A stretch of DNA of 64,000 nt from Bacteroidota bacterium (lineage in GTDB: Bacteria; Bacteroidota; Bacteroidia; B-17B0; Aurantibacillaceae). A program made the position numbers and the translations under genes. Of this stretch, positions 29,728 to 43,286 are shown piece by piece. The notes under the pieces were generated by a model, which searched no databases, was not told the origin of the DNA, and was given only the letters and a program-made list of their open reading frames with translations. The stretch covers positions 62,001 through 126,000 of the forward strand of contig JACPOC010000015.1 of the NCBI GenBank assembly GCA_016185125.1, read 5' to 3'. How positions within the stretch are numbered: position 1 is the stretch's first letter; every line of letters starts with the position of its first letter.

Positions 29728-30549
29728 ATGAATATAGTTGAAAATGGTTCCATATTAATTCCCATTGATTTTTCAAAACAATCTTTGAGCGCAATTAAGC
29801 AATCGTATAATTTAGCAAAGCATACTAAATCGAAATTATTGCTCATGCATGGTTATACTCATGATGTGGATGAGGATAAAGCTAAATTGGAAGCCTTAGG
29901 AAAATCTACGGCCGCTGAAAGTGGTTTAGACGTAAGCGTTGTTTCTGTAAAAGGAGATATTTACGAGGAAACATCAAAAATGTCGGAAAAAATAAAGAGT
30001 ACTCTTATAGTAGCCGGATTGGATACTCATGTGCGCTTTAGGAGTTTTATGGGAAAAAGCAGTACAAGTAAATTTATTAAAAATGCCGGCTGCCCTGTAT
30101 TAACCGTTAGAACAAACGAAATAAAAGATAATATTAAAAACATTGTTCTTCCATTTGATCTCACACCTCAATCACGCGAAAAAGTACCTATTGTTATTCA
30201 GCTGGCGCAATATTTTAAAGCGGATATTCGTATTGTTTCGGTGTTTGACCCAAGCGATACACATTACGAAAATAAACTACTGCCTTATCTTCAGCAGGTA
30301 AAAAAATATATTAAGGATAAGCATGTAAATACTACTAATAAATCCATTCCGGCTAAGCACGTTCCTGAAACCATTGTAGATTATGCCAATAAAAATAATT
30401 GTGACCTGATTGTTCAAATGAATAAAACAGATGTTAGCTTCGGTGAAATGTTTAGCGGAACAGCCAGCCAACACCTCGTGGACATTAGCAACATACCTGT
30501 TTTAACGGTAAATCCTATGAGAAGAGAGAGCATGCCTCTTTCGTATTAA
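29728..30549 (+). CDS. Universal stress protein with two Usp domains
   Basis: This 273-residue protein is a tandem Usp fold. The first copy begins SILIPIDFSKQSLSAIKQ and the second NIVLPFDLTPQSREKVP. The first half ends GCPVLTVRT and the second NIPVLTVNP, which is the typical end strand of each domain. The ATP-binding glycine motif is degenerate in both halves, so nucleotide binding is uncertain. The role is probably stress or redox adaptation. It ends four bases into the convergent gene at 30546. Confidence 0.88.
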   Translation: MNIVENGSILIPIDFSKQSLSAIKQSYNLAKHTKSKLLLMHGYTHDVDEDKAKLEALGKSTAAESGLDVSVVSVKGDIYEETSKMSEKIKSTLIVAGLDTHVRFRSFMGKSSTSKFIKNAGCPVLTVRTNEIKDNIKNIVLPFDLTPQSREKVPIVIQLAQYFKADIRIVSVFDPSDTHYENKLLPYLQQVKKYIKDKHVNTTNKSIPAKHVPETIVDYANKNNCDLIVQMNKTDVSFGEMFSGTASQHLVDISNIPVLTVNPMRRESMPLSY

Positions 30550-31331
30550 GCAATATTCTTTTTTAGCTTTTTCAGATATTCGGGCAGATGCAGTAAACGG
30601 CTTCCGTACCAACTAAAGACTTCTCCGTCAACTATCAATGTTTTTACACCGGGTAAAAATAATTCAATTTCTTTTTGATGTTTTTCTTTAAAGGGAAAAG
30701 GTTCTGATGATAAAAAACAAAAATCCGCATTCATTTCTTTCAACTCTTCCTTGCTCACTTCCGGGTATCTTTGTAGGTGTTCCGCTGCGTTTATTAATCC
30801 TGTATAATTTAATACATGATTAATAAAAGTATTTCCTCCGGCTAGCATATAAGGTTTGTTCCATATAAAATAAACCACACGCCGATGATTAAAAATGTTT
30901 TTTATTTCGGGTATGTTTTTTTTTAACTGATCGATTATTTGGTCTGCCGCCTGTTCTCTTTTCAAAATAGTACCAACCTCTTGAATCATATTAAAGGCAT
31001 CTTCAAAATTAAAAATATCGCTCATCCACACATTAAATTCTCTCTGCAATTCTTCAATCTGATCTTTTTCATTTTCTTCCTTATTTCCAATAATAAGGTC
31101 AGGCTTCAACTTCCTTATTTTTTCTAGGTCAAGGGTTTTAGTGCCACCAACCCTTTCAACGGTTCTAAACATTTCATGGGGGTGAATACAAAATTTAGTA
31201 ATGCCAATAAGTTCTTCTCTTAATCCTAAATCCCACAATAATTCCGACTGCGATGGCACAATAGAAATTATTCTTTGTGGCACGCTGCTTAAAATAATAC
31301 TCCTTCCGGTTTGATCGATAAAAGTTGGCAT
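30546..31331 (-). CDS. Helical-backbone metal-receptor (BtuF/FepB-like) protein without signal peptide
   Basis: This 261-residue protein has the fold of cobalamin/siderophore substrate-binding proteins. The N-terminus FIDQTGRSIILSSVPQRIISIVPSQSELLWDLGL is classical, as are KPDLIIGNKEEN and the long central helix. There is no signal peptide or lipobox, so it is predicted to be cytoplasmic, unlike BtuF. No permease or ATPase gene is adjacent. It may be a cytosolic cobalamin-binding or metal-chelate protein. ATG 31331 lies almost on the predicted transcription start, suggesting a leaderless mRNA. Confidence 0.8.
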   Translation of the reverse strand: MPTFIDQTGRSIILSSVPQRIISIVPSQSELLWDLGLREELIGITKFCIHPHEMFRTVERVGGTKTLDLEKIRKLKPDLIIGNKEENEKDQIEELQREFNVWMSDIFNFEDAFNMIQEVGTILKREQAADQIIDQLKKNIPEIKNIFNHRRVVYFIWNKPYMLAGGNTFINHVLNYTGLINAAEHLQRYPEVSKEELKEMNADFCFLSSEPFPFKEKHQKEIELFLPGVKTLIVDGEVFSWYGSRLLHLPEYLKKLKKNIA

Positions 31332-33125: not shown

Positions 33126-34097
33126 ATGCTTAACCGCCTTTTTAAACTTTTATTTATATCCTTTTTGGTATGGATGTTTGTAAGAACTTTTTTATTTCAA
33201 ACGTATCGCATTCCTTCCTCCAGCATGTACGGCAGTTTGTTTGAAGGCGAGTATGTGGTTATAAATAAACTGGCTTACGGAGCACGATTACCTATAACTC
33301 CTTTATCGTATCAAAAAAATTATGTTGATTGGATCAGTCTTCCCTACATACGTTTATTTGGTTTTTCGGATATTGAGCGAAATGATATAATTGCATTTAA
33401 TTATTCCTTAACGGATGAGTTGCCCATTGATCTCCGGCAAGAATATATTAAAAGGTGCGTGGGCCTTCCCGGCGATACGTTAAGGATAATTAATGGTGTA
33501 GTTTCCGCGCCATCATTTACAAGTGAACCCACCACCATTTATAATCCTTACTCGGTTATAACCAATAGTAAATTAGATAGCAACACGCTCATCAACTTAA
33601 ATATTGTTCCTGATGGCAATTCAGAAAGTAATAAATATTATTTATACATGGGCACAGAACAAGCCGCAGCTCTTTTAAAAACCGGTATTATAAAATCGTT
33701 AACTCTCCAACATTATAATAAAGAACAATATCAACCCGCTATATTTCCAAACTATCCCAATTTTAAATGGAACCTTGATCATTTTGGCCCTTTATATATA
33801 CCACGCGAAAAGGATAGTGTAGCACTTACCAAAGACAACCTGCTTTTATATCAGCGAATCATCAGCCGATTTGAAGGTGTAGATTTATCTTTTAAAGGAG
33901 ATTCTGTTTTTACGGATAAAAAATACTGTGCTTATTATACGTTTAAAAACAATTATTATTTTTTAATGGGTGATAATCGCCATAATTCCATTGATTGCCG
34001 AAATTGGGGATTTATTCCTGAAAGCCACATTATCGGAAAAGCATTTCTCGTACTTTCTTCAACAAAAAAAGGTAGAAGTTTTTCTAAAATAAAATAA
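33126..34097 (+). CDS. lepB: Signal peptidase I
   Basis: This 323-residue membrane-anchored serine protease cleaves Sec signal peptides at the outer face of the inner membrane. It has an N-terminal TM helix (about 5-22), a catalytic Ser in YRIPSSSMYGSL (about residue 31), a catalytic Lys in EYIKRCVGLPGDTL, and the C-terminal box MGDNRHNSIDCRNWGFIP. An insertion of about 150 residues between the Lys and GDN boxes is seen in many Bacteroidota enzymes. It follows yicC-like by four bases. Confidence 0.94.
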   Translation: MLNRLFKLLFISFLVWMFVRTFLFQTYRIPSSSMYGSLFEGEYVVINKLAYGARLPITPLSYQKNYVDWISLPYIRLFGFSDIERNDIIAFNYSLTDELPIDLRQEYIKRCVGLPGDTLRIINGVVSAPSFTSEPTTIYNPYSVITNSKLDSNTLINLNIVPDGNSESNKYYLYMGTEQAAALLKTGIIKSLTLQHYNKEQYQPAIFPNYPNFKWNLDHFGPLYIPREKDSVALTKDNLLLYQRIISRFEGVDLSFKGDSVFTDKKYCAYYTFKNNYYFLMGDNRHNSIDCRNWGFIPESHIIGKAFLVLSSTKKGRSFSKIK

Positions 34098-34306: not shown

Positions 34307-36067
34307 ATGAAAAAATCTACAAAATTAATCCTTGGAGCTTCGTGTGTTCTGGCAACCGCCTTAACATTCAGCTACATGGATTCGCAACAATCCCTGATCC
34401 AGGCCTCAAGCCACAGGGAGGCGCCGTTGATCTCGAACGATCCTCTGGCCGATAATACGGACTTGTACGCATTCCGCAGCCCGGATGATACCAATAAGGT
34501 AACCATAATTGCAAATTATGTGCCTTTGCAACTACCACAAGGGGGTCCAAATTATCATTCTTTTGGTACTAACATCCGTTATGAAATCCATATTGAAAAT
34601 AATGGAGCTGCCGGCGATGATATCACTTACCGCTTTACTTTTAGTAAATTCAATGAGGATACCACAACTTTCTTTAACATCCGTTTAGGAAAGCAAAATT
34701 TAAAAACAACTTATGTAGCTGAAAAAAGTGTTAATGGTGGTGCCTTTACTACAATTGTAGGTTCCGGAATTGTTCCGCCTCCAAACATTGGCCCACGCTC
34801 TATTTCAACTCCTGTAGGTTTAAATACAACTTATCCGGCTTTAGTTGCAGCTGCAATTGCTAACGCAACCGGAACTGGTGGAGAGAAAATATTCTGCGGA
34901 CCAATTGATGATCCGTTTTTTGCTGATTTAGGCGGTATTTTTGATTTAGGTATGACCCGTGCGGGGGGCACCGGTTCTAACACACCACGCGACGGAGTTG
35001 GACACAAAAATGTTCACACTATTGCTTTACAAATTCCAATCAGCACATTACAAAAAACCGGTTTAGCTGTTAGTTCTGCAACTAATATCTTAGACAGCCG
35101 TTTTATTATTGGTGTTTGGGCTTCGGCAAGCAGGCCAAGTACACGTACACTTAGCACAGGTGGTAACAACCCGGCTGATGTAGGTACTTATGTACAGGTT
35201 TCACGTATTGGTATGCCTTTAACTAACGAAGCTATTGTTCCCATCGGATCAAAAGACCTTTGGAATTCACGTACCCCTTATAACGAAATCGCATTTCACG
35301 AAACATATTTTACTAACCCCGAGTTAGCTTTATATATGGATGATTCTCAATATGGTGGCGCGGTTCCTGCATTAACTGCTTTACGCACACAAAGTAACTC
35401 CTTACAATCTTTCGACTTCCGTAACGGAAAGCCGGGTTTGTTTCCTTTACAAGGAACTCCCGCAGTTGCCGGAACAGCTTTAGATAATGCAAATTTCGGT
35501 ACCTACTTACTGCGTTCTAACCAACCGCGTTCAGTAGATATTCTTCCAATTTTCCACACAGGCGTTCCAAATTTACCTCCTTACCAATTAGCTACAGGAA
35601 AAGCGGGTGGTAATCCACTTGCTGCAGGTAAACCGTTTATCAATAACTTTTTACCAATTTTTGGTGATATGTTACGTTTAAACATGGCTGTTCCTGTAAC
35701 TCCTCGTAATAGCCCTAATTTCAGTTCTTTAGGATTAGTTTGGGCTGCGGTTTTAGGTTTAACAGATCCTGCGTATACAAATATCAACATGCAATTTATT
35801 CCTAACATGGATGGATTCCCTAATGGCCGTCGTTTAGAAGATGATGTTACCCGTATTGAATTACAAGCTGTGGGTGGAGTTGTTTTAGCTGCAATCGGTT
35901 TATGGTATGATGATTATACTGCCGGAGGAGCTAACCCGGTTACTGCTAAACTACAATCTGTATTAGGTTATAGCACCGGAGTTCAAAACAACGATACAAC
36001 CTTTAAAGCTAACTTCCCTTATGTGCAAAACCCATGGAGCGGTTATGCTAACCATAGCGGACAATAA
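34307..36067 (+). CDS. DUF4331 secreted protein, copy 1 (no sorting tail)
   Basis: This 586-residue secreted protein has a signal peptide (about 1-23, or processed later at residue 34), then the family opening SSHREAPLISNDPLADNTDL, and the DUF4331 body across nearly the whole length. It lacks the C-terminal T9SS domain present in the next gene and ends with NPWSGYANHSGQ. The two copies are very similar over about 570 residues, so this is a tandem duplication. A 209-base upstream gap holds no clear gene, only an imperfect hairpin near 34203-34233. The biochemical role of DUF4331 is not established. Confidence 0.9.
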   Translation: MKKSTKLILGASCVLATALTFSYMDSQQSLIQASSHREAPLISNDPLADNTDLYAFRSPDDTNKVTIIANYVPLQLPQGGPNYHSFGTNIRYEIHIENNGAAGDDITYRFTFSKFNEDTTTFFNIRLGKQNLKTTYVAEKSVNGGAFTTIVGSGIVPPPNIGPRSISTPVGLNTTYPALVAAAIANATGTGGEKIFCGPIDDPFFADLGGIFDLGMTRAGGTGSNTPRDGVGHKNVHTIALQIPISTLQKTGLAVSSATNILDSRFIIGVWASASRPSTRTLSTGGNNPADVGTYVQVSRIGMPLTNEAIVPIGSKDLWNSRTPYNEIAFHETYFTNPELALYMDDSQYGGAVPALTALRTQSNSLQSFDFRNGKPGLFPLQGTPAVAGTALDNANFGTYLLRSNQPRSVDILPIFHTGVPNLPPYQLATGKAGGNPLAAGKPFINNFLPIFGDMLRLNMAVPVTPRNSPNFSSLGLVWAAVLGLTDPAYTNINMQFIPNMDGFPNGRRLEDDVTRIELQAVGGVVLAAIGLWYDDYTAGGANPVTAKLQSVLGYSTGVQNNDTTFKANFPYVQNPWSGYANHSGQ

Positions 36068-36093
36068 TTTAAACAACATTAAAAATAACTAAT

Positions 36094-38169
36094 ATGAATA
36101 AAAATATAATCACAAAAGTCCTTGGTGTATCCTGTGTTGTTGCTGCCGCAATAACCATGTACACTCTGGATTCACAAAAATCTCCTCTGCAGGCTTCAAG
36201 TCACAGAGAAGCGCCATTGATTGCGAACGATCCATTGGCCGATAACACAGACCTTTACGCATTCCGTAGCCCTGATGATACTAATAAAGTAACCATTATT
36301 GCTAATTACGTTCCTTTGCAATTACCGCAAGGAGGACCTAATTATGCTACGTTTGGTAAAAATGTAAGATATGAAATTCATATTGAAAATAACGGAACAG
36401 CCGGTGATGATATCACTTACCGTTTTACCTTTAACCAAGTAAACGAAGACACTACTACTTTCTTTAACATCCGTTTAGGAAAGCAGAACTTAAAAACTAC
36501 TTATGTAGCTGAAAAAAGTGTTAATGGCGGTGCCTTTACTACTATTGTAGGAGCAGGAGTTGTTCCTCCAAATAACGTTGGGCCTCGTTCCATTTCAGGC
36601 GGTGCAGGTTTAAATACTAATTACCCTGCGTTAATGGCTGCTGCAATTGCAACTGCAACAGGTGGTGGCGGAGAAAAAGTATTCTGCGGACCGGTTGACG
36701 ATCCTTTCTTTGTTGATCTGGGTGGTATTTTTGATTTAGGCCAAACCCGTGCCGGTGGTATTGGTGTTAACAGGCCGGAAGACGGAGTTGCTTGTAAGAA
36801 CATTCATACAATCGCACTTCAAATTCCAATCAGCTCTTTACAGCAAAACAGTTTAGCAGTTACTTCTGCAACTAATATCTTAGACGGCCGCTTTATTATC
36901 GGTGTTTGGGCTTCAGCAAGCAGACAGCAGATCAGAACCTTAAACACTAACGGAACTGAATCTTACACAGGTTCTTTTGTTCAGGTTTCTCGTATTGGAA
37001 TGCCTTTAACTAACGAAGCTGTTATTCCTATCGGATCTAAAGACAGATGGAATTCACGTACTCCTTACAACGAAATAGCATCAAACGATGAGTTTTTCTG
37101 TAATCCTGAGTTAGCATTGTATATGGATAATTCTCAGTTCGGTAGTGCTGTTCCTGCTTTATCCGCTTTACGCACTCAAAGTGCTTCTTTACAAACTTAT
37201 GACTTCCGTAATGGAAAAGCAGGTTTATATCCTTTATACGCAACTAACGCGGGTGCAGGTACTGCATTAGATACTAACGTGTTTGGTAAGTATTTATTAC
37301 GTCCGGCTCGTCCACGTTCGGTAGATATTCTTCCAATTTTCCACACCGGGGTTCCAAATTTACGTCCCTACCAATTAGCTACAGGTAAAGGTGGTAATCC
37401 ACTGGCTGCAGGTAAGCCGTTTATCAATAATTTTTTACCAATTTTTGGTGATATGTTGCGTTTAAACATGGCAGTTCCTGTAACTCCTCGTAATAGCCCT
37501 AATTTCAGTTCTTTAGGATTAATTCAGGCCGCTGTTATCGGATTAACAAGTCCTTCATACAGTACTATTGCACTTCAAAATATTCCTAACATGGATGGAT
37601 TCCCTAACGGTCGTCGTTTAGAAGACGATGTTACCCGTATTGAATTACAAGCTGTGGGCGGAGTTGTTTTAGCCGCAATTGGTTTATGGTATGATGATTA
37701 TACTGCCGGCGGAGCTAATCCTGTTACTCCTAAATTATTAGCAACCTTAGGTTACAGCACAGGTATCGAGAAAAACGATACAACGTTCAAAGCTAACTTC
37801 CCGTATTGCCAAACTCCTTGGTCGGGTTACGGTAAATGCGGCGGACCAACTGCTATCAACAACACGGTTGGTTTCTCTGAATTTGGTGTAGGTTACAGTG
37901 CGCCTGCGTTAGCAATGGTACAAAATTATCCTAACCCTTTTAAAGGCCATACCACTTTTAAATACCACGTTGCAACAACTGCACCGGTTAGCATTTCAGT
38001 TTATGATTTGTCAGGTAAGCGTGTAGCTGTGGTAATGAATGAAACAAAACAACCTGGTACTTATGAGGTAACGTATAACGCTGAGAATCTTGCTCAGGGT
38101 ATATATATTGCTACTTTATCTTCAGGTTCAACAGTAATACAATCTGTAAAGATATCTGCTGTTAAATAA
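36094..38169 (+). CDS. DUF4331 secreted protein, copy 2 with T9SS type A sorting domain
   Basis: This 691-residue paralogue of the preceding gene lies 26 bases downstream. It has a signal peptide, then SSHREAPLIANDPLADNTDL, the full DUF4331 domain, a Gly/Cys-containing linker (YGKCGGPTAINN), and a C-terminal T9SS type A domain of about 80 residues (VQNYPNPFKGHTTFKYHV, SISVYDLSGKRV, GIYIATLSSGSTV). It is predicted to be exported across the outer membrane and anchored or released, while copy 1 would lack that route. A strong terminator follows. Confidence 0.92.
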   Translation: MNKNIITKVLGVSCVVAAAITMYTLDSQKSPLQASSHREAPLIANDPLADNTDLYAFRSPDDTNKVTIIANYVPLQLPQGGPNYATFGKNVRYEIHIENNGTAGDDITYRFTFNQVNEDTTTFFNIRLGKQNLKTTYVAEKSVNGGAFTTIVGAGVVPPNNVGPRSISGGAGLNTNYPALMAAAIATATGGGGEKVFCGPVDDPFFVDLGGIFDLGQTRAGGIGVNRPEDGVACKNIHTIALQIPISSLQQNSLAVTSATNILDGRFIIGVWASASRQQIRTLNTNGTESYTGSFVQVSRIGMPLTNEAVIPIGSKDRWNSRTPYNEIASNDEFFCNPELALYMDNSQFGSAVPALSALRTQSASLQTYDFRNGKAGLYPLYATNAGAGTALDTNVFGKYLLRPARPRSVDILPIFHTGVPNLRPYQLATGKGGNPLAAGKPFINNFLPIFGDMLRLNMAVPVTPRNSPNFSSLGLIQAAVIGLTSPSYSTIALQNIPNMDGFPNGRRLEDDVTRIELQAVGGVVLAAIGLWYDDYTAGGANPVTPKLLATLGYSTGIEKNDTTFKANFPYCQTPWSGYGKCGGPTAINNTVGFSEFGVGYSAPALAMVQNYPNPFKGHTTFKYHVATTAPVSISVYDLSGKRVAVVMNETKQPGTYEVTYNAENLAQGIYIATLSSGSTVIQSVKISAVK

Positions 38170-38190
38170 TTTTAAATTAAATAATTATTT

Positions 38191-38232
38191 AGAATCGGGT
38201 TCCTTTTAATCAGGAACCCGATTCTTTTTTTT
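38191..38232 (+). terminator. Strong rho-independent terminator after the DUF4331 pair
   Basis: A 13-bp perfect stem, AGAATCGGGTTCC (38191-38203) with GGAACCCGATTCT (38213-38225), has a 9-nt loop and is followed by eight T. It separates the DUF4331 unit from the TPR-HupE-TonB unit. Confidence 0.93.
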
Positions 38233-38239
38233 AAGTTTG
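38232..38239 (+). promoter_or_regulatory. -7 promoter box for the TPR/HupE unit
   Basis: TAAGTTTG matches TAnnTTTG exactly, directly after the terminator T run. Predicted start about 38245, short leader to ATG 38257. No convincing -33 TTG is seen, because the terminator occupies that position. Confidence 0.5.
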
Positions 38240-38256
38240 TTTTAATAACAATTATC

Positions 38257-39585
38257 ATGCGTAAAAATCTATATATTATTCTGGTTGCAGTAACTTCGCT
38301 GCTGCTCATCTGCATCTTTATATTTTCAAAAAAACAGAAAGTTGTAACGCCACCGTATAAAGAAAGAAAAAGTAATGTAGCCCTTTCAGGTGAGTGGTTA
38401 AATACCAAAAAAGCTATTGAAGGATTATTGGCTGCCATTGAGCAAAACCCTGATGATTATAAAGCTATGCTTGAACTTTCTCAAGCTTACATTCAAGAAG
38501 GCCGCATTACCGGCGATCATGCTTACTACGATAAAGCCGCGCTTCAATTACTCGATAGAATTCTTGAAAAACAACCTGATAATTTTGATGCCATGTGCTG
38601 CAAGGCAACCGTGCTTTTATCCCAACATCATTTTGGAGAAGGATTACAACTTGCTAATAAAGCACTGCCTCTTAATCCCGATAATGCTTTTATTTATGGT
38701 ATTCTTTGCGATGCGCATCTTGAATTAGGTAATTACAAAGAAGCCGTTGCAATGGCTGATAAAATGGTTTCTATTCGTCCGGATATTCGTTCGTATGCGC
38801 GCGTTTCTTATTTACGTGAAATTTACGGGGATATTCCGGGAGCCATACAAGCTATTCGTTTAGCTGTTGAAGCAGGATATCCGGGCCTGGAACAAACAGA
38901 ATGGACCAGATGCGTCCTCGCTCACTTATATGAAAGTACGGGTAAGCTTGACAGTGCACAATATGAATATAAAATTTCTTTAAGAGACCGTCCTGATTAT
39001 CCTTTTGCCATAGCGGGATTAGGAAAAATAGAAAAAGCGAAAGGCAACTACAAAGCGGCTATAGCGTATTTTGAAAAAGCGAAAAAATTGGTGACCGAAT
39101 ATTCTTTTTCGGATGAATTAACAGATCTTTATCGCTTGAATAACGAAAAAGAAAATGCCGATAAAAATGCTCAGGAAGTTATTGAGATGTTAAGCCCGCA
39201 ATCAGAGGTAGAAGGCGAAAGCGGCCATGGGCATTATGCGGATAAAGAACTGGCCTATGCTTACTTAAAAATAAACGATGTAAAAAGTGCGCTAAAACAT
39301 GCAGTAATTGAATATCAGAGAAGGCCTGAAAATATTGATGTTTGCGAAACTTTGGCGTGGGTTAAATTTAAGAATAACGAAACTTCGGAAGCAAATAAAC
39401 TTATTGATAAGGCCATGAGAACGGGAAGTAAAAACCCTGTGCTTTTATGCCGTGCGGGCCTAATTAAAATCAAAAATGGTCAGGCAGAAAAAGGAAAAGA
39501 ATTAATTAAATTAGCTTTAGAAACCAACCCATTTCTGGAAATTGAATTAAAACACGAAGCCGGAGCATATTTAGCTCAAAAGTAG
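38257..39585 (+). CDS. Membrane-anchored TPR protein
   Basis: This 442-residue protein has an N-terminal TM/signal segment (about 5-23: YIILVAVTSLLLICIFIF), a short Lys-rich linker, then TPR units over the remainder (examples NPDNAFIYGILCDAHLELGN, YKAAIAYFEKAKKL). It probably sits in the inner membrane with the repeats outside the cytoplasm, where it could scaffold the neighbouring DUF4331 or HupE proteins. The stop is five bases before the hupE-like ATG, so it is the first gene of that operon. Confidence 0.85.
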   Translation: MRKNLYIILVAVTSLLLICIFIFSKKQKVVTPPYKERKSNVALSGEWLNTKKAIEGLLAAIEQNPDDYKAMLELSQAYIQEGRITGDHAYYDKAALQLLDRILEKQPDNFDAMCCKATVLLSQHHFGEGLQLANKALPLNPDNAFIYGILCDAHLELGNYKEAVAMADKMVSIRPDIRSYARVSYLREIYGDIPGAIQAIRLAVEAGYPGLEQTEWTRCVLAHLYESTGKLDSAQYEYKISLRDRPDYPFAIAGLGKIEKAKGNYKAAIAYFEKAKKLVTEYSFSDELTDLYRLNNEKENADKNAQEVIEMLSPQSEVEGESGHGHYADKELAYAYLKINDVKSALKHAVIEYQRRPENIDVCETLAWVKFKNNETSEANKLIDKAMRTGSKNPVLLCRAGLIKIKNGQAEKGKELIKLALETNPFLEIELKHEAGAYLAQK

Positions 39586-39590
39586 CGCGT

Positions 39591-40277
39591 ATGGAGTTTC
39601 TTAAAAAAAATAACATTCGGTGTATAATAATTGCATTTATAACACTTGCTCTCACGCTTATTCCTACGGTTATTCAGGCGCATCCTTCTGATGAATATTT
39701 TGCCAAACTTTCGCGTACAGATGTTTTTTACATTTACCTGGAGTTAGGTTTCACTCACATTATCCCTTTAGGATTTGATCACATCCTTTTTATTTTAAGT
39801 CTGTTTTTATTAAGTCCTAAATTAAAAACAATTATCTGGCAAGCTACCGCATTTACGGTTGCTCATTCAATTACACTCGGACTTGCCATGTTTGGAGTTG
39901 TTTCGGCACCCTCCCATATTGTTGAGCCCATTATAGCCCTTTCCATCATGTTTGTAGCTATTGAAAATATTATTTCCGATAAATTAAGGCCAAGCAGAAT
40001 TTTAATAGTGTTTGCATTCGGATTGATTCATGGCCTAGGATTTGCAGGTGTGCTCAAAGATCTTGGCTTACCTAAAAAAGAATTTATCAATGCACTTATT
40101 AGTTTTAATATTGGAGTTGAATTGGGACAGGTGGCCATAATTTTAAGTGCATGGTTCTTATTTGGTAAATGGTTTAATCAAAAGCCATGGTACAGGAAGG
40201 TGATTGTTAACCCTTTATCTGCCCTTATTGCAGCTATTGCCCTTTATTGGACAATCGAGCGGGCGTTTTTCCAATAA
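39591..40277 (+). CDS. HupE/UreJ family membrane protein
   Basis: This 228-residue protein has a signal-like N-terminus ending QAHPSDEYF, then six predicted TM segments. Family motifs are GFTHIIPLGFDHILF and AFTVAHSITLGLA, plus FGLIHGLGFAGVL; conserved His and Asp residues within helices are presumed metal ligands. Characterised HupE/UreJ members are secondary nickel or cobalt transporters linked to hydrogenase and urease. Neither enzyme is near here, so the metal is uncertain. It is co-transcribed with the TPR gene. Confidence 0.88.
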   Translation: MEFLKKNNIRCIIIAFITLALTLIPTVIQAHPSDEYFAKLSRTDVFYIYLELGFTHIIPLGFDHILFILSLFLLSPKLKTIIWQATAFTVAHSITLGLAMFGVVSAPSHIVEPIIALSIMFVAIENIISDKLRPSRILIVFAFGLIHGLGFAGVLKDLGLPKKEFINALISFNIGVELGQVAIILSAWFLFGKWFNQKPWYRKVIVNPLSALIAAIALYWTIERAFFQ

Positions 40278-40322
40278 AATGGATTTAAATCCAAAAGCAT
40301 TAAAACTTCGTATATATTTTAG

Positions 40323-40694
40323 GTGAAGAAACTTTTTATCTATATTCTTTTATTTTTTTACGTAGCTGTTCAGTTAAAACCTTTAACTGCGATTGTTAAT
40401 GACGTATTGGCTCACACGTTTTTTAAAGCGCAGCACATGGCCACAATTCACTATGAAAATGGTAAGTATCACTTGCATGCCGAATTGAAAGACATTTCTG
40501 AAAAAAATAATTTAACGCCTTCTGAAAAAGCACCTTCTTCTCAAAAAACAAATGATTCGGTTTCCTTGCATACCACCCCTGATTTTATTTTTCAACTTAA
40601 TAAACAGGCACTACTATCTCAGTATCCAACCGAAGCAACAAATGCGCTTCCCAGTGCCTTCCTTAAAATCAGCAGCCCTCCACCAAAAGTTTAA
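40323..40694 (+). CDS. Small His-rich exported protein upstream of TonB receptor
   Basis: This 123-residue protein has a GTG start and an N-terminal hydrophobic segment (about 4-20). A short His-rich stretch follows (LAHTFFKAQHMATIHYENG, then KYHLHAEL), a Ser/Lys-rich middle, and a Pro-rich end (SSPPPKV). The histidines spaced through residues 35-60 suggest periplasmic metal binding, which is inference. It lies between hupE-like and the TonB receptor. I do not recognise a named family. Confidence 0.6.
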   Translation: MKKLFIYILLFFYVAVQLKPLTAIVNDVLAHTFFKAQHMATIHYENGKYHLHAELKDISEKNNLTPSEKAPSSQKTNDSVSLHTTPDFIFQLNKQALLSQYPTEATNALPSAFLKISSPPPKV

Positions 40695-40760
40695 TTTCTT
40701 TTCTCAATTTAATTTTCTATTGATATTCCGGAAAGATATTTAAGGCATTTCATTCTTATT

Positions 40761-40886
40761 TAACAGGAACTTTCTGTATTATTCAAAGATTTCTTAATTG
40801 AATTTTAAGCTGCAAGGCTATTCTTGCATGGAGATAAAATAATTTATTTTTAACAGGACTTCCTGCTAGTAAATAACCTTGCAGCT
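40761..40886 (+). promoter_or_regulatory. Structured leader with alternative stems before the TonB receptor
   Basis: AGCTGCAAGG (40808-40817) pairs perfectly with CCTTGCAGCT (40877-40886). The same left arm can instead form a local hairpin, TGCAAG (40811-40816) with CTTGCA (40823-40828). Two related small hairpins occur, ACAGGA/TTCTGT from 40763 and CAGG/CCTG from 40854. Mutually exclusive pairing 40 bases before the ATG suggests cis-regulation. No known riboswitch motif is recognised. Confidence 0.45.
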
Positions 40887-40923
40887 ATCTTAAATTTTTA
40901 CACCAATTTCAAATTTTTTTACA

Positions 40924-43230
40924 ATGACTTTTAATTTTACTAAATACAAATATTACCTTCTTTTATATTGCCTTACTGTTACTACTATCATTAATTCTCA
41001 AACTTCTATTAAAGGAAAAGTTTCCGATAAAGAAAACGGTGCGCTGCTTGAAAACGTAAATATTATTATTGACAAAACCAACAGTCACGCCCATTCAGAT
41101 GATAAAGGCAATTTTTATTTTGTAAATATTCCCATGGGCAAATACGATTTAGAATTTGAGCGAATAGGTTATGAAAAACAAATTATTAATGTAGTAATAT
41201 CTTCAATAGACACAGTGGCATTAAATGTGCTTCTGGTTTCAAAAGCTATTGATCTAAACGAAATTGCAATAGAGGTAGACAAACCTGTTTCAGCCGCTTC
41301 ATCATCTTATTTAAGCCAAAAAGATTTTAATAATCGGCCAAAAAACTCTGCACAAGATATGCTTCGATTAGTGCCGGGTTTATTTATTGCACAACATGCC
41401 GGCGGAGGTAAATCTGAACAGATTTTTATTCGAGGATTCGACGCCGATCACGGAACAGATGTAGCCACTTTTGTGGACGGTATTCCTGTGAATATGCCCA
41501 GCCAGGCGCATGGCCAAGGATATGCTGATCTTCACTTTTTAATTCCTGAAGTTGTAGAAGGGATGAGCATCTTTAAAGGCGCCTCCTCGCCATTATATGG
41601 TGATTTTGCTACCGCGGCAGCCATAGGTTTTAAAACATTCGACTCATTACCCAACAATCTTCTACAACTTGAAACAGGTTCGGTTCCCCGCTCAAAGGCT
41701 GTAACTAGTAACAGAGGGCTTGCAATGTTAAAAGTACCCTTTAATAATAGCAAGATAAATTCTTATTTTGCTGCGGATGTAATAAACAACAGAGGATTCT
41801 TTGACATAAGTCAGGATTTTAAAAGAGTAAATTTATTTTCCAAAACAACCTTTGCCATAAACGATCATAGTCGGCTAAATTTTTCCGTAACAGGTTTCGG
41901 ATCTTCATGGAATGCTTCGGGTCAAATACCTGAAAGGGGAGTTGCCTCCGGAATTATTGGTCGCTTCGGCAGCATTGATCCAAACGAAGGAGGAACCACA
42001 CAAAGAAATAATTATAATTTAACTTACACCTACAAGCTTGGAACAGGCGAGTTTGAAGCTCAGGCCTATATGAGCAATTACAGATTTAAATTATTTTCAA
42101 ATTTCACTTTCTTTTTAATTGATTCTGTGAGAGGAGATATGATTGAGCAAAATGATAATCGTACAGTTCGAGGCTTAAATACTAAATACACAATTGGGCA
42201 TAGGTTGTTTAACATGAATAATAAATTTACGTTTGGAACATCATTTCGCGATGATGATATCCAAAATGATTTGTGGCGTTCTCCAAACAGAGAGCGCTTC
42301 AAGGCAAATGCGAATGCCTTAATCCGTCAACGGTCAAACGCTGTGTTTGTAAATGAAGTATTTAGATTTAACGATCACTTCCGAATGGAAATTGGATTAC
42401 GTTACGATTATTTTATATTTGACGTCCAAGATCTTATCCCCACTGATTCAACCCATAAAAATTATTCAGGCTTTAATTACCAATCTGCTTTTAATCCAAA
42501 ATTAAATTTAATATATACGGTAAATAGCAAAATTCAATTCTTCTTTAATTCAGGCAGCGGCTATCACTCAAACGATGCGCGATCATCTGTTCAGGAAAAA
42601 AACCAGCATCGCCTGCCCAAAGCCGTTAGCTCTGAATTAGGAACATTGCTTCACATAAATAGCAGAACAGTTATTTCAGCGGCTGCCTGGGCAATGGATT
42701 TAAGCAATGAACTGGTTTATGCCGGAGATGATGGCACAACCGAAAACAGAGGTGCCAGCAGAAGAATTGGCGTTGATTTAAGCGGGAGAGCGCAATTATT
42801 ATCTTGGCTATATTTTGACGCGGATATAAACATATCTAAAGGAAGATTTATTGATACTTTATTCGGATATACAAAAAAAGAAAATTACTATATCCCCTTG
42901 GCACCTATTTTAACTTCTTCCGGAGGATTAACAGCCAAGTTTAAAAGTATAGAGTTGGGGTTGCGTTATAGGTATATGAAAGACAGGCCGGCGAATGAAA
43001 CTAATACTATTATAGCGCGAGGATATAACGTATTTGATTTTACGGTTAATTATAAAACTAAACGGTATAAAGTTGGACTTTTAATTGAAAATATTTTAGA
43101 TGTAAATTGGAATGAAGCTCAATTCGCTACAGAAACACGTTTGCGAAATGAAAAAAAATCAGTAGACGAGCTTCACTTTACACCGGGCACACCCTTTTAC
43201 GCGAAACTGGTTTTAGGATATATTTTTTAG
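40924..43230 (+). CDS. TonB-dependent receptor with N-terminal carboxypeptidase-regulatory-like domain
   Basis: This 768-residue outer-membrane active transporter has a signal peptide (about 1-25), a CarboxypepD_reg-like beta-sandwich (KGKVSDKENGALLENVNII to about residue 110), a plug domain (QDMLRLVPGLFIAQHAGGG, IFIRGFDADHGTDVATFVDG) and a 22-strand-type barrel ending in LVLGYIF. The plug has several His (HGQGYADLHF). Proximity to a HupE-like transporter suggests a metal chelate substrate; this is an inference. A terminator follows, so it is the last gene of the unit. Confidence 0.93.
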   Translation: MTFNFTKYKYYLLLYCLTVTTIINSQTSIKGKVSDKENGALLENVNIIIDKTNSHAHSDDKGNFYFVNIPMGKYDLEFERIGYEKQIINVVISSIDTVALNVLLVSKAIDLNEIAIEVDKPVSAASSSYLSQKDFNNRPKNSAQDMLRLVPGLFIAQHAGGGKSEQIFIRGFDADHGTDVATFVDGIPVNMPSQAHGQGYADLHFLIPEVVEGMSIFKGASSPLYGDFATAAAIGFKTFDSLPNNLLQLETGSVPRSKAVTSNRGLAMLKVPFNNSKINSYFAADVINNRGFFDISQDFKRVNLFSKTTFAINDHSRLNFSVTGFGSSWNASGQIPERGVASGIIGRFGSIDPNEGGTTQRNNYNLTYTYKLGTGEFEAQAYMSNYRFKLFSNFTFFLIDSVRGDMIEQNDNRTVRGLNTKYTIGHRLFNMNNKFTFGTSFRDDDIQNDLWRSPNRERFKANANALIRQRSNAVFVNEVFRFNDHFRMEIGLRYDYFIFDVQDLIPTDSTHKNYSGFNYQSAFNPKLNLIYTVNSKIQFFFNSGSGYHSNDARSSVQEKNQHRLPKAVSSELGTLLHINSRTVISAAAWAMDLSNELVYAGDDGTTENRGASRRIGVDLSGRAQLLSWLYFDADINISKGRFIDTLFGYTKKENYYIPLAPILTSSGGLTAKFKSIELGLRYRYMKDRPANETNTIIARGYNVFDFTVNYKTKRYKVGLLIENILDVNWNEAQFATETRLRNEKKSVDELHFTPGTPFYAKLVLGYIF

Positions 43231-43256
43231 ATCCCATTTTTTCATTAACCACCTTT

Positions 43257-43286
43257 AAAATAGCTGCTTCGGCGGCTATTTTTTTT
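43257..43286 (+). terminator. Terminator with UUCG tetraloop after the TonB receptor
   Basis: AAAATAGCTGC (43257-43267) and GCGGCTATTTT (43272-43282) form an 11-bp stem, one G-T pair, around TTCG, followed by T. Confidence 0.9.

Follow-up and report, generated by a model that had tools for sequence, protein, structure and literature searches.

The stretch of DNA analysed here, referred to as the window, spans 64,000 nucleotides of a Bacteroidota contig (JACPOC010000015.1, positions 62,001 to 126,000, assembly GCA_016185125.1). It bears a gene cluster in which two exported DUF4331 proteins, DUF4331a and DUF4331b, are followed by a tetratricopeptide repeat (TPR) protein, a permease of the HupE_UreJ_2 family, a small exported or anchored protein termed HisR, and a TonB-dependent receptor—all encoded on the plus strand. 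Sequence comparison shows that DUF4331, the TPR protein, and a metal-type permease form a recurrent set across several phyla, which in Bacteroidota often includes a particular family of TonB-dependent receptors. New here is a histidine predicted at residue 3 of the mature protein (X-X-H) in three forms of DUF4331, which start with SSH or ASH, with ADH, and with S-N-H or S-H-H, respectively. We lean, if only slightly, toward reading the cluster as an envelope route for metal capture, which would bind Cu(II), or both copper and nickel, and hand the metal over to the permease. A literature search found no paper naming DUF4331 (PF14224) or SSHREAP, the motif around this histidine in the full-length form—although most subscription papers were outside its reach. 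The partner set and the predicted N-terminal metal site make the long-unexplained function of DUF4331 directly testable.

Conserved neighbourhood of DUF4331

Within a close-relative set of 100 genomes (the source genome and 99 relatives), DUF4331 occurs in 14 genomes, HisR in 12, and HupE_UreJ_2 in 60; HupE alone is, therefore, no marker. The order LepB–DUF4331a–DUF4331b–TPR–HupE–HisR–TonB is repeated in five relatives (G006, G018, G030, G034, and G050), and a sixth (G003) shows the same order without LepB—a signal peptidase I paralogue—on a cut contig. Partners within 6 kb of DUF4331 were counted in 80 named loci, the best-scoring of at least 567 and biased toward close relatives, of which 45 are complete, that is, extend at least 3 kb upstream and at least 6 kb downstream. 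In the complete loci, the partner present most regularly is TPR (43 of 45), followed by the TonB receptor (30) and HupE (16), with all three present in 14; only L121 and L172 lack TPR, TonB, and HupE altogether. Counting all 80 loci including the cut ones, TPR is found in 64, the TonB receptor in 40, and HupE in 25. The gene order is shuffled in L111, L153, L155, and L167—L153 reads TonB–TPR–HupE–DUF4331, and the TonB gene precedes HupE in L111 and L167—while the set remains together. Seven HupE neighbourhoods that lack DUF4331 (L088–L094), a small control, hold no TPR gene and at most a weak TonB match (51 bits, L093).

An even sample of 395 genomes of the phylum, the source genome included, gives a wider view. 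DUF4331 is widespread here (48 of 395) as well as on proteobacterial and actinobacterial plasmids; the 48 genomes comprise the source genome, 22 other full-length carriers, and 25 weaker matches. Twenty of them were examined at the locus level, ten per form, and the remaining weak-match genomes are taken to carry the split form on account of their match pattern. Each of the ten full-length loci has at least one of the partners (TPR 8, TonB 4, HupE 4). The split form, found in other Bacteroidota families (L191–L200), consists of two adjacent frames of ~220 and ~180 amino acids; its ten loci hold TPR in nine cases, a TonB receptor of the same family in six, and HupE in one. Both halves were seen in nine of them (the second half of L192 by eye), and for L199 only the second half was called.

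Some members are bound to the cluster more loosely than others. Neither HupE nor HisR is obligatory next to DUF4331: 16 and 3 of the 45 complete loci, respectively, have them. G043 and G059 have the HisR–TonB pair without DUF4331, and in G002 the pair and DUF4331 lie on different contigs; the pair is a separable module, which also occurs alone. Among the HisR–TonB pairs without adjoining DUF4331 (L083, L084, and L085), L085 adjoins a di-haem peroxidase gene (CCP_MauG) and L084 lies near an ApbE gene. The initial annotation had proposed that all these genes belong to one system and had looked to their adjacency in other genomes: the adjacency is conserved, also outside Bacteroidota, and the unit is real, with the HisR–TonB pair separable and HupE and HisR optional. 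Genes for extracytoplasmic function (ECF) sigma factors, RskA-type anti-sigma factors, and fasciclin-domain proteins lie near DUF4331 in several phyla (L033, L221, L222, L106, L107, and L182), hinting at a shared regulation.

Phyla other than Bacteroidota were sampled via plasmids only: 26 of 34 plasmid DUF4331 records were examined (omitting H2, H9, H12, and H30–H34), and a second listing of 37 records added three more. In the 26 loci, HupE_UreJ_2 stands beside DUF4331 in ten (Pseudoalteromonas, Marinobacter, Comamonadaceae, Variovorax, Lichenicola, and Paraburkholderia), a NicO-like permease in eight (Streptomyces, another Streptomycetaceae strain, Embleya, and Nonomuraea), and neither in eight. 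Proteobacterial plasmids bear the arrangement DUF4331–TPR–HupE and Streptomyces-group plasmids DUF4331–TPR–NicO. The NicO profile was built from four of the eight loci, and the other four score 423–979 bits; Pfam confirms NicO for L182 and L212, and the gene is labelled "nickel transporter" in all four annotated records. A third arrangement is seen on a Rhizobium ruizarguesonis plasmid (L225:4001-5602), where a DUF4331 without signal peptide is directly followed by canonical HupE (PF04955); no annotated permease lies next to the other three signal-peptide-less DUF4331 genes. Three predicted metal-permease families—HupE_UreJ_2, canonical HupE, and NicO—take turns beside DUF4331. This swap supports a metal function, in line with the initial annotation, while nickel or cobalt as the substrate is not established by it. 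On the Variovorax plasmid, a gene for the urease accessory protein UreD lies directly upstream of DUF4331–TPR–HupE (L185:5885-6721).

A predicted N-terminal X-X-H motif

DUF4331a (34307–36067; Pfam E 5.7e-128) and DUF4331b (36094–38169; E 5.8e-130) match the whole DUF4331 domain with 428 and 435 bits at a cut-off of 27 (model positions 1–421). Their predicted mature forms start with SSHREAP from residue 34 and residue 35, and the Ser-Ser-His codons lie at 34406–34414 and 36196–36204, respectively. The same motif is found in 132 of 138 DUF4331 sequences; of the other six, L113 reads SSHREAK, and five are fragments or frames missing their own N-terminus. The preceding residue is Ala in 122 cases, Ser in 8, and Gly in 2, and position −3 holds only A, L, S, V, I, T, or G—a −1/−3 pattern that makes this a classical signal peptidase I site, as predicted from sequence. 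Among 27 plasmid DUF4331 proteins (six of which, from L031–L036, are also among the 138), 24 bear SSH and 2 bear ASH.

The two other forms retain the histidine in a different context. All nine N-terminal halves seen of the split form read ADH after a preceding Ala, continuing with I, V, or A and then DAP or DTP. The signal-peptide-less form starts with M-S-N-H or M-S-H-H in four of four cases (one with a GTG start); an N-terminal Met before Ser gets removed, so that X-X-H results again. Hereby, the flanking residues vary across forms (ADHIDAP, SNHFTGL, and SHHYSGP), while His3 stays—the sole residue of the first seven common to all DUF4331 forms. According to the part of PMC7701195 at hand, the amino-terminal Cu(II)- and Ni(II)-binding (ATCUN) motif is NH2-X-X-His and binds Cu(II) and Ni(II). 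The predicted mature end Ser-Ser-His of DUF4331 is such a motif, its His being placed at mature residue 3 by the cleavage rule and by conservation.

This placement was also assessed with a blind cleavage rule, which is a crude rule rather than a dedicated signal-peptide predictor. It calls a signal peptide in 97 of 129 DUF4331 proteins and puts His at +3 in 47 of these 97, as opposed to 2 of 188 other exported proteins from the same loci. Among the latter, Gln leads at +1 (n = 63), and 0 of 127 DUF4331 proteins expose Gln at the predicted site. For signal peptidase I substrates in Bacteroidetes, a mature start with Gln averages 71% and the Gln is cyclised (PMC5837995, in the part at hand); the amine would therefore be blocked.

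A histidine at the very start of the mature protein is seen for two of the partners. The blind rule puts His at +1 in 9 of 15 HupE proteins and 11 of 25 TonB receptors, versus 3 of the 188 others; a second simple rule, applied to 58 TonB receptors (one genome counted twice), gives His as the first candidate in 22 and Gln in 32. In HupE, A30-H31 is invariant (23 of 23), and some rule-compatible cleavage exposing His exists in 20 of the 23. Hence, by prediction, HupE starts with His1 after cleavage of its signal peptide.

An alternative function for the N-terminus of DUF4331 would be that of a docking tag, in which SSHREAP would be recognised by the TPR partner or by an exit machine, with only an incidental role for metal. 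Peptide ends are frequent ligands of TPR proteins, the TPR protein is the partner retained most often, and the full-length form conserves R-E-A-P almost as strictly as SSH. However, the residues around the histidine change in the split and signal-peptide-less forms while His3 stays, and X-X-H is still kept in the four records of the signal-peptide-less form, beside which no TPR gene is annotated. A docking tag would also leave the metal permeases unexplained, and we hold it to be quite improbable.

Candidate metal and transport route

For the ATCUN reading of DUF4331, the following route might be drawn. Cleavage by signal peptidase I would free the N-terminal amine, which together with two backbone amides and His3 would form the ATCUN site; it is predicted to grip Cu(II) first and Ni(II) second. 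The type IX secretion system (T9SS) would put DUF4331b on the cell surface, and DUF4331a would remain periplasmic, such that their N-termini might take up metal outside the cell or in the periplasm. The TonB receptor would carry the metal or a metal-bearing ligand across the outer membrane. At the inner membrane, the TPR protein might gather the partners and arrange the hand-over, and the metal would pass to HupE with its predicted His1—or to NicO in the case of the Streptomyces-group plasmids. Every transport step in this scheme is inferred, while conservation and the N-terminal sequence were read directly from the sequences compared.

A broader version can be formulated only tentatively, and we would sooner doubt than accept it: a multi-phylum metal relay on N-terminal histidines. 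In this relay, DUF4331 would act as an ATCUN metallochaperone or protein metallophore, with a His3 that persists when the precursor is cleaved, when the gene is split, and when the signal peptide is lost. The protein would feed exchangeable permeases starting with His1 (HupE-2, HupE, and NicO) and work with a Bacteroidota TonB family that often starts with His1 as well; in the genus of the source genome, LepB may be devoted to these ends. If true, catching copper or nickel with exposed protein N-termini would be a recurrent bacterial strategy across several envelope layers.

Several observations weigh against the metal-capture reading. HupE is absent from 29 of the 45 complete loci, and both permeases are missing from 8 of the 26 plasmid loci. 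All five Rhodobacterales plasmid loci (L034, L181, L183, L184, and L186) combine DUF4331 with type II secretion genes and have neither TPR nor HupE or another permease, which is evidence against a fixed gene set. Nearby regulators in some loci are of the ECF sigma and RskA type (8 and 7 of 45) rather than known metal regulators. At the N-terminus, the site picked by the blind rule was a different one for 50 of the 97 DUF4331 proteins, and for 32 others the rule recognised no signal peptide. The simple rule also permits a cut directly before His in 127 of 127 DUF4331 proteins, and an alternative site would expose Gln in 9 of 127. The window TonB receptor exposes Gln and not His as its first candidate, and the invariant R-E-A-P that follows the histidine in full-length DUF4331 points to a role additional to that of an ATCUN site.

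A cut directly before His, giving DUF4331 a His1 as well, was considered and rejected: such a cut would place Asp at −1 in the split form, and it cannot apply to the signal-peptide-less form. X-X-H is, therefore, the reading common to all forms. As to the Rhodobacterales loci, their type II secretion neighbours suggest a different export route for DUF4331; four of these loci have an adjoining small gene with a lipoprotein-like product.

Which metal would be captured was approached via nickel enzymes. The initial annotation had read the cluster as nickel or cobalt uptake and had noted no urease or hydrogenase nearby; a search for urease and NiFe hydrogenase across the entire source genome (3.34 Mb, rated 99.9% complete) turned up neither, which extends the latter statement. 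The 22 other full-length carriers comprise four with urease, one with hydrogenase, and 17 with neither. They were compared with the 372 sampled genomes without full-length DUF4331, the source genome excluded, counting only matches with E <1e-50: urease is commoner in carriers (4 of 22 versus 8 of 372, Fisher p 0.003), and hydrogenase is rarer (1 of 22 versus 102 of 372). Three of the four urease carriers belong to one genus, so that these cases are not independent.

A rival reading, in which the cluster imports nickel or cobalt to supply an enzyme that depends on one of them, draws on this urease enrichment, on the UreD gene of the Variovorax plasmid, and on the permeases in the slot, since the HupE/UreJ and NicO families include nickel and cobalt members (PMC2667541 and PMC7689651, as far as the parts at hand go). 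However, the single genus behind most urease carriers, the rarity of hydrogenase, and the lack of both enzymes in the source genome and in 17 of 22 carriers (nickel superoxide dismutase and cobalamin enzymes lay outside the search) all speak against it, as does the deviating first helix of the window HupE described below. Nickel for urease or hydrogenase in Bacteroidota is poorly supported, and we regard uptake of this kind as unlikely.

Returning to metal capture by ATCUN sites, copper is weakly favoured as the metal, with nickel second. The support comes from two His1 domains fused to HupE/UreJ-2, which bind copper best (74 and 62 nM) and, as the next-best metal, nickel in one (220 nM) and iron in the other (PMC12537917, in the part at hand), and from the affinity of ATCUN sites for Cu(II) and Ni(II).

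The same metals might instead be buffered or detoxified: DUF4331 would sequester excess Cu(II) or Ni(II) outside the cell under ECF sigma control, and the permease would act in efflux or not be central. ECF sigma or RskA-type genes indeed lie near some loci and precede DUF4331 in three of three Pseudoalteromonas plasmids examined; fasciclin genes are found at a few loci, and the Pseudoalteromonas and Sulfitobacter pontiacus loci have RND efflux genes close by. Surface export by T9SS would fit as well, and the NicO family includes exporters such as RcnA. Yet 30 of the 45 complete loci encode a TonB receptor, an energised importer, and sequestration of this kind appears rather unlikely to us.

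The proposed capture route can be compared with known systems, as far as the available parts of the cited papers allow. Anglerases (Ang-1/Ang-2 fused to HupE/UreJ-2, PMC12537917) share the permease family and the His1 after signal-peptide cleavage. The proteobacterial HupE proteins beside DUF4331 resemble them in their His start and in an N-terminal domain of similar size, with the permease match beginning at residue 178–204. On the contrary, the window HupE bears no beta-sandwich Ang domain before the permease, while its predicted His1 is kept, and its partner is a separate DUF4331 protein with X-X-H rather than His1. The anglerase paper does not contain the word "tetratricopeptide" and mentions TonB once, beside DUF4198. 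With serum albumin-type ATCUN proteins (PMC7701195), DUF4331 shares the NH2-X-X-His mature N-terminus, in its case predicted, but it is bacterial and genetically tied to permeases, and its metal binding is a prediction. BtuB–BtuG (PMC10404256) likewise combines a TonB receptor with an exported partner in Bacteroidota; here, the partner would be DUF4331 exported via T9SS, and the receptor bears a distant likeness to BtuB, ShuA, and CntO, restricted to the plug.

In the proteobacterial HupE proteins (L033, L035, L036, and L180), the N-terminal domain contains an EF-hand-like loop, for example DLNGDRTVTGNE.

Genes and RNA elements of the window locus

All elements named in the initial annotation—two DUF4331 genes, terminator, TPR, HupE-like, HisR, leader, and TonB genes—were recovered at their positions, and the Pfam names hold above cut-offs (HisR has none). 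The T9SS type A C-terminal sorting domain (TIGR04183) is present in DUF4331b only; the same domain scan found no such tail in DUF4331a. From this difference we infer that the pair probably splits between compartments, with DUF4331b on the surface and DUF4331a in the periplasm. The DUF4331 model has a mean pLDDT of 70.9, with residues 28–41 below 50, and comparing its fold with known ones yielded nothing to follow (Foldseek E 0.078 at best; in VIA-align, antibody-like beta-sandwiches with Z <7). A pattern scan of viral contigs with DUF4331a found no relative.

The two transcription units are separated by an intrinsic terminator (38191–38225, a 14-pair stem and a T run), which bears out the strong terminator claimed at this place. 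An exact-stem search was positive in four of eight syntenic gaps, with similar stems in G030, G006, and G018, and found none in G034, G050, G003, and G061. A second intrinsic terminator with an 11-pair stem follows the TonB gene (43257–43282).

The TPR protein (38257–39585, assigned by Pfam) carries a hydrophobic N-terminal segment and is probably anchored in the inner membrane; some relatives are lipoproteins by a crude rule (Cys at +1 in 20 of 47). HupE (39591–40277, Pfam E 3.7e-48) matches PF13795 with 163.6 bits at a cut-off of 24.5 and has its predicted mature N-terminus at His31. It comprises 228 amino acids, with the permease match starting at residue 49, and its model (pLDDT 86.6) shows helices only, with no convincing match in the fold comparison. 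In a 23-row alignment of cluster HupE proteins, H56-x6-D63-H64, H92, and H147 are invariant, as are I57, P59, and G61. The first-helix signature HPXXGXDH of HupE/UreJ nickel/cobalt permeases (PMC7689651, in the part at hand) is absent from the window HupE, which reads HIIPLGFDH at residues 56–64; it differs herein from the HupE/UreJ (PF04955) and NicO/NiCoT nickel–cobalt permeases that hold its place beside DUF4331 in other bacteria. The nickel or cobalt substrate first proposed for it is favoured by its family relations and disfavoured by this first helix and by the missing urease and NiFe hydrogenase, a linkage that is frequent for HupE/UreJ permeases without being universal.

HisR (40323–40694, GTG start) has no Pfam match. 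It had been described as His-rich, which is only mildly so (6 His in 123 residues), yet four of these (His31, 38, 43, and 50) are invariant across 13 aligned sequences, the window copy included. The TonB-dependent receptor (40924–43230) bears a CarboxypepD-like N-terminal extension (CarbopepD_reg_2), and its plug (PF07715) and barrel (PF00593) both score above the Pfam cut-offs. In a sequence search of solved structures, its similarity to BtuB, CirA, ShuA, and CntO is confined to the plug region; the search gave no credible match for HupE or DUF4331.

A structured leader (40806–40888) precedes the TonB gene, as originally proposed; it folds better than all 200 shuffles (z −2.96). The element of 80–138 nt is shared by seven genomes, 8–47 nt before the TonB start (the window copy, L078, L079, L085, L095, L096, and L097), and the motif TTTAACAGGA is conserved in most. 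Its 8-pair closing helix has all 55 cells paired, with compensatory changes on both sides in four pairs, and slid versions drop to 22–53% paired. The observed value is reached by 0 of 500 shuffles in four of five measures and by 160 in the remaining one (pair types); as the helix was selected on these same sequences, the comparison is biased in its favour. Each of 7 of 60 genomes matches the leader in a single place (G034 on both strands), the source genome with one full match, and all seven are those used to build the model. The single place per genome rejects a mobile repeat. A core part was rejected as well: the cassette genomes outside the model, G025 and G029, were not matched. In G029 a similar stretch is recognisable by eye with the closing helix lost; the G025 gap has no comparable inverted repeat, G043 lacks the leader, and none was seen in G050. 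Rfam 15 gave no window match at gathering score, its best sub-threshold hits being unrelated. Judging from the pairing, we take the leader for a genuine RNA structure of some members of the genus and not for a core part of the cluster.

The signal peptidase I paralogue LepB (33126–34097; Pfam Peptidase_S26, NCBIfam TIGR02227) ends ~210 bases upstream of DUF4331a, and contig 23 of the source genome holds further Peptidase_S26 open frames. LepB is found near DUF4331 in 6 of 20 stretches (L078, L079, L080, L087, L096, and L097) and in just 1 of the 45 complete named loci; it is a genus or family trait and not a feature of the wider set. The neighbouring LepB may be devoted to DUF4331-type precursors. 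Some 3 kb upstream of the cluster, a Peripla_BP_2 gene with no obvious signal peptide, BtuF/FhuD-like, lies on the minus strand at 30546–31331.

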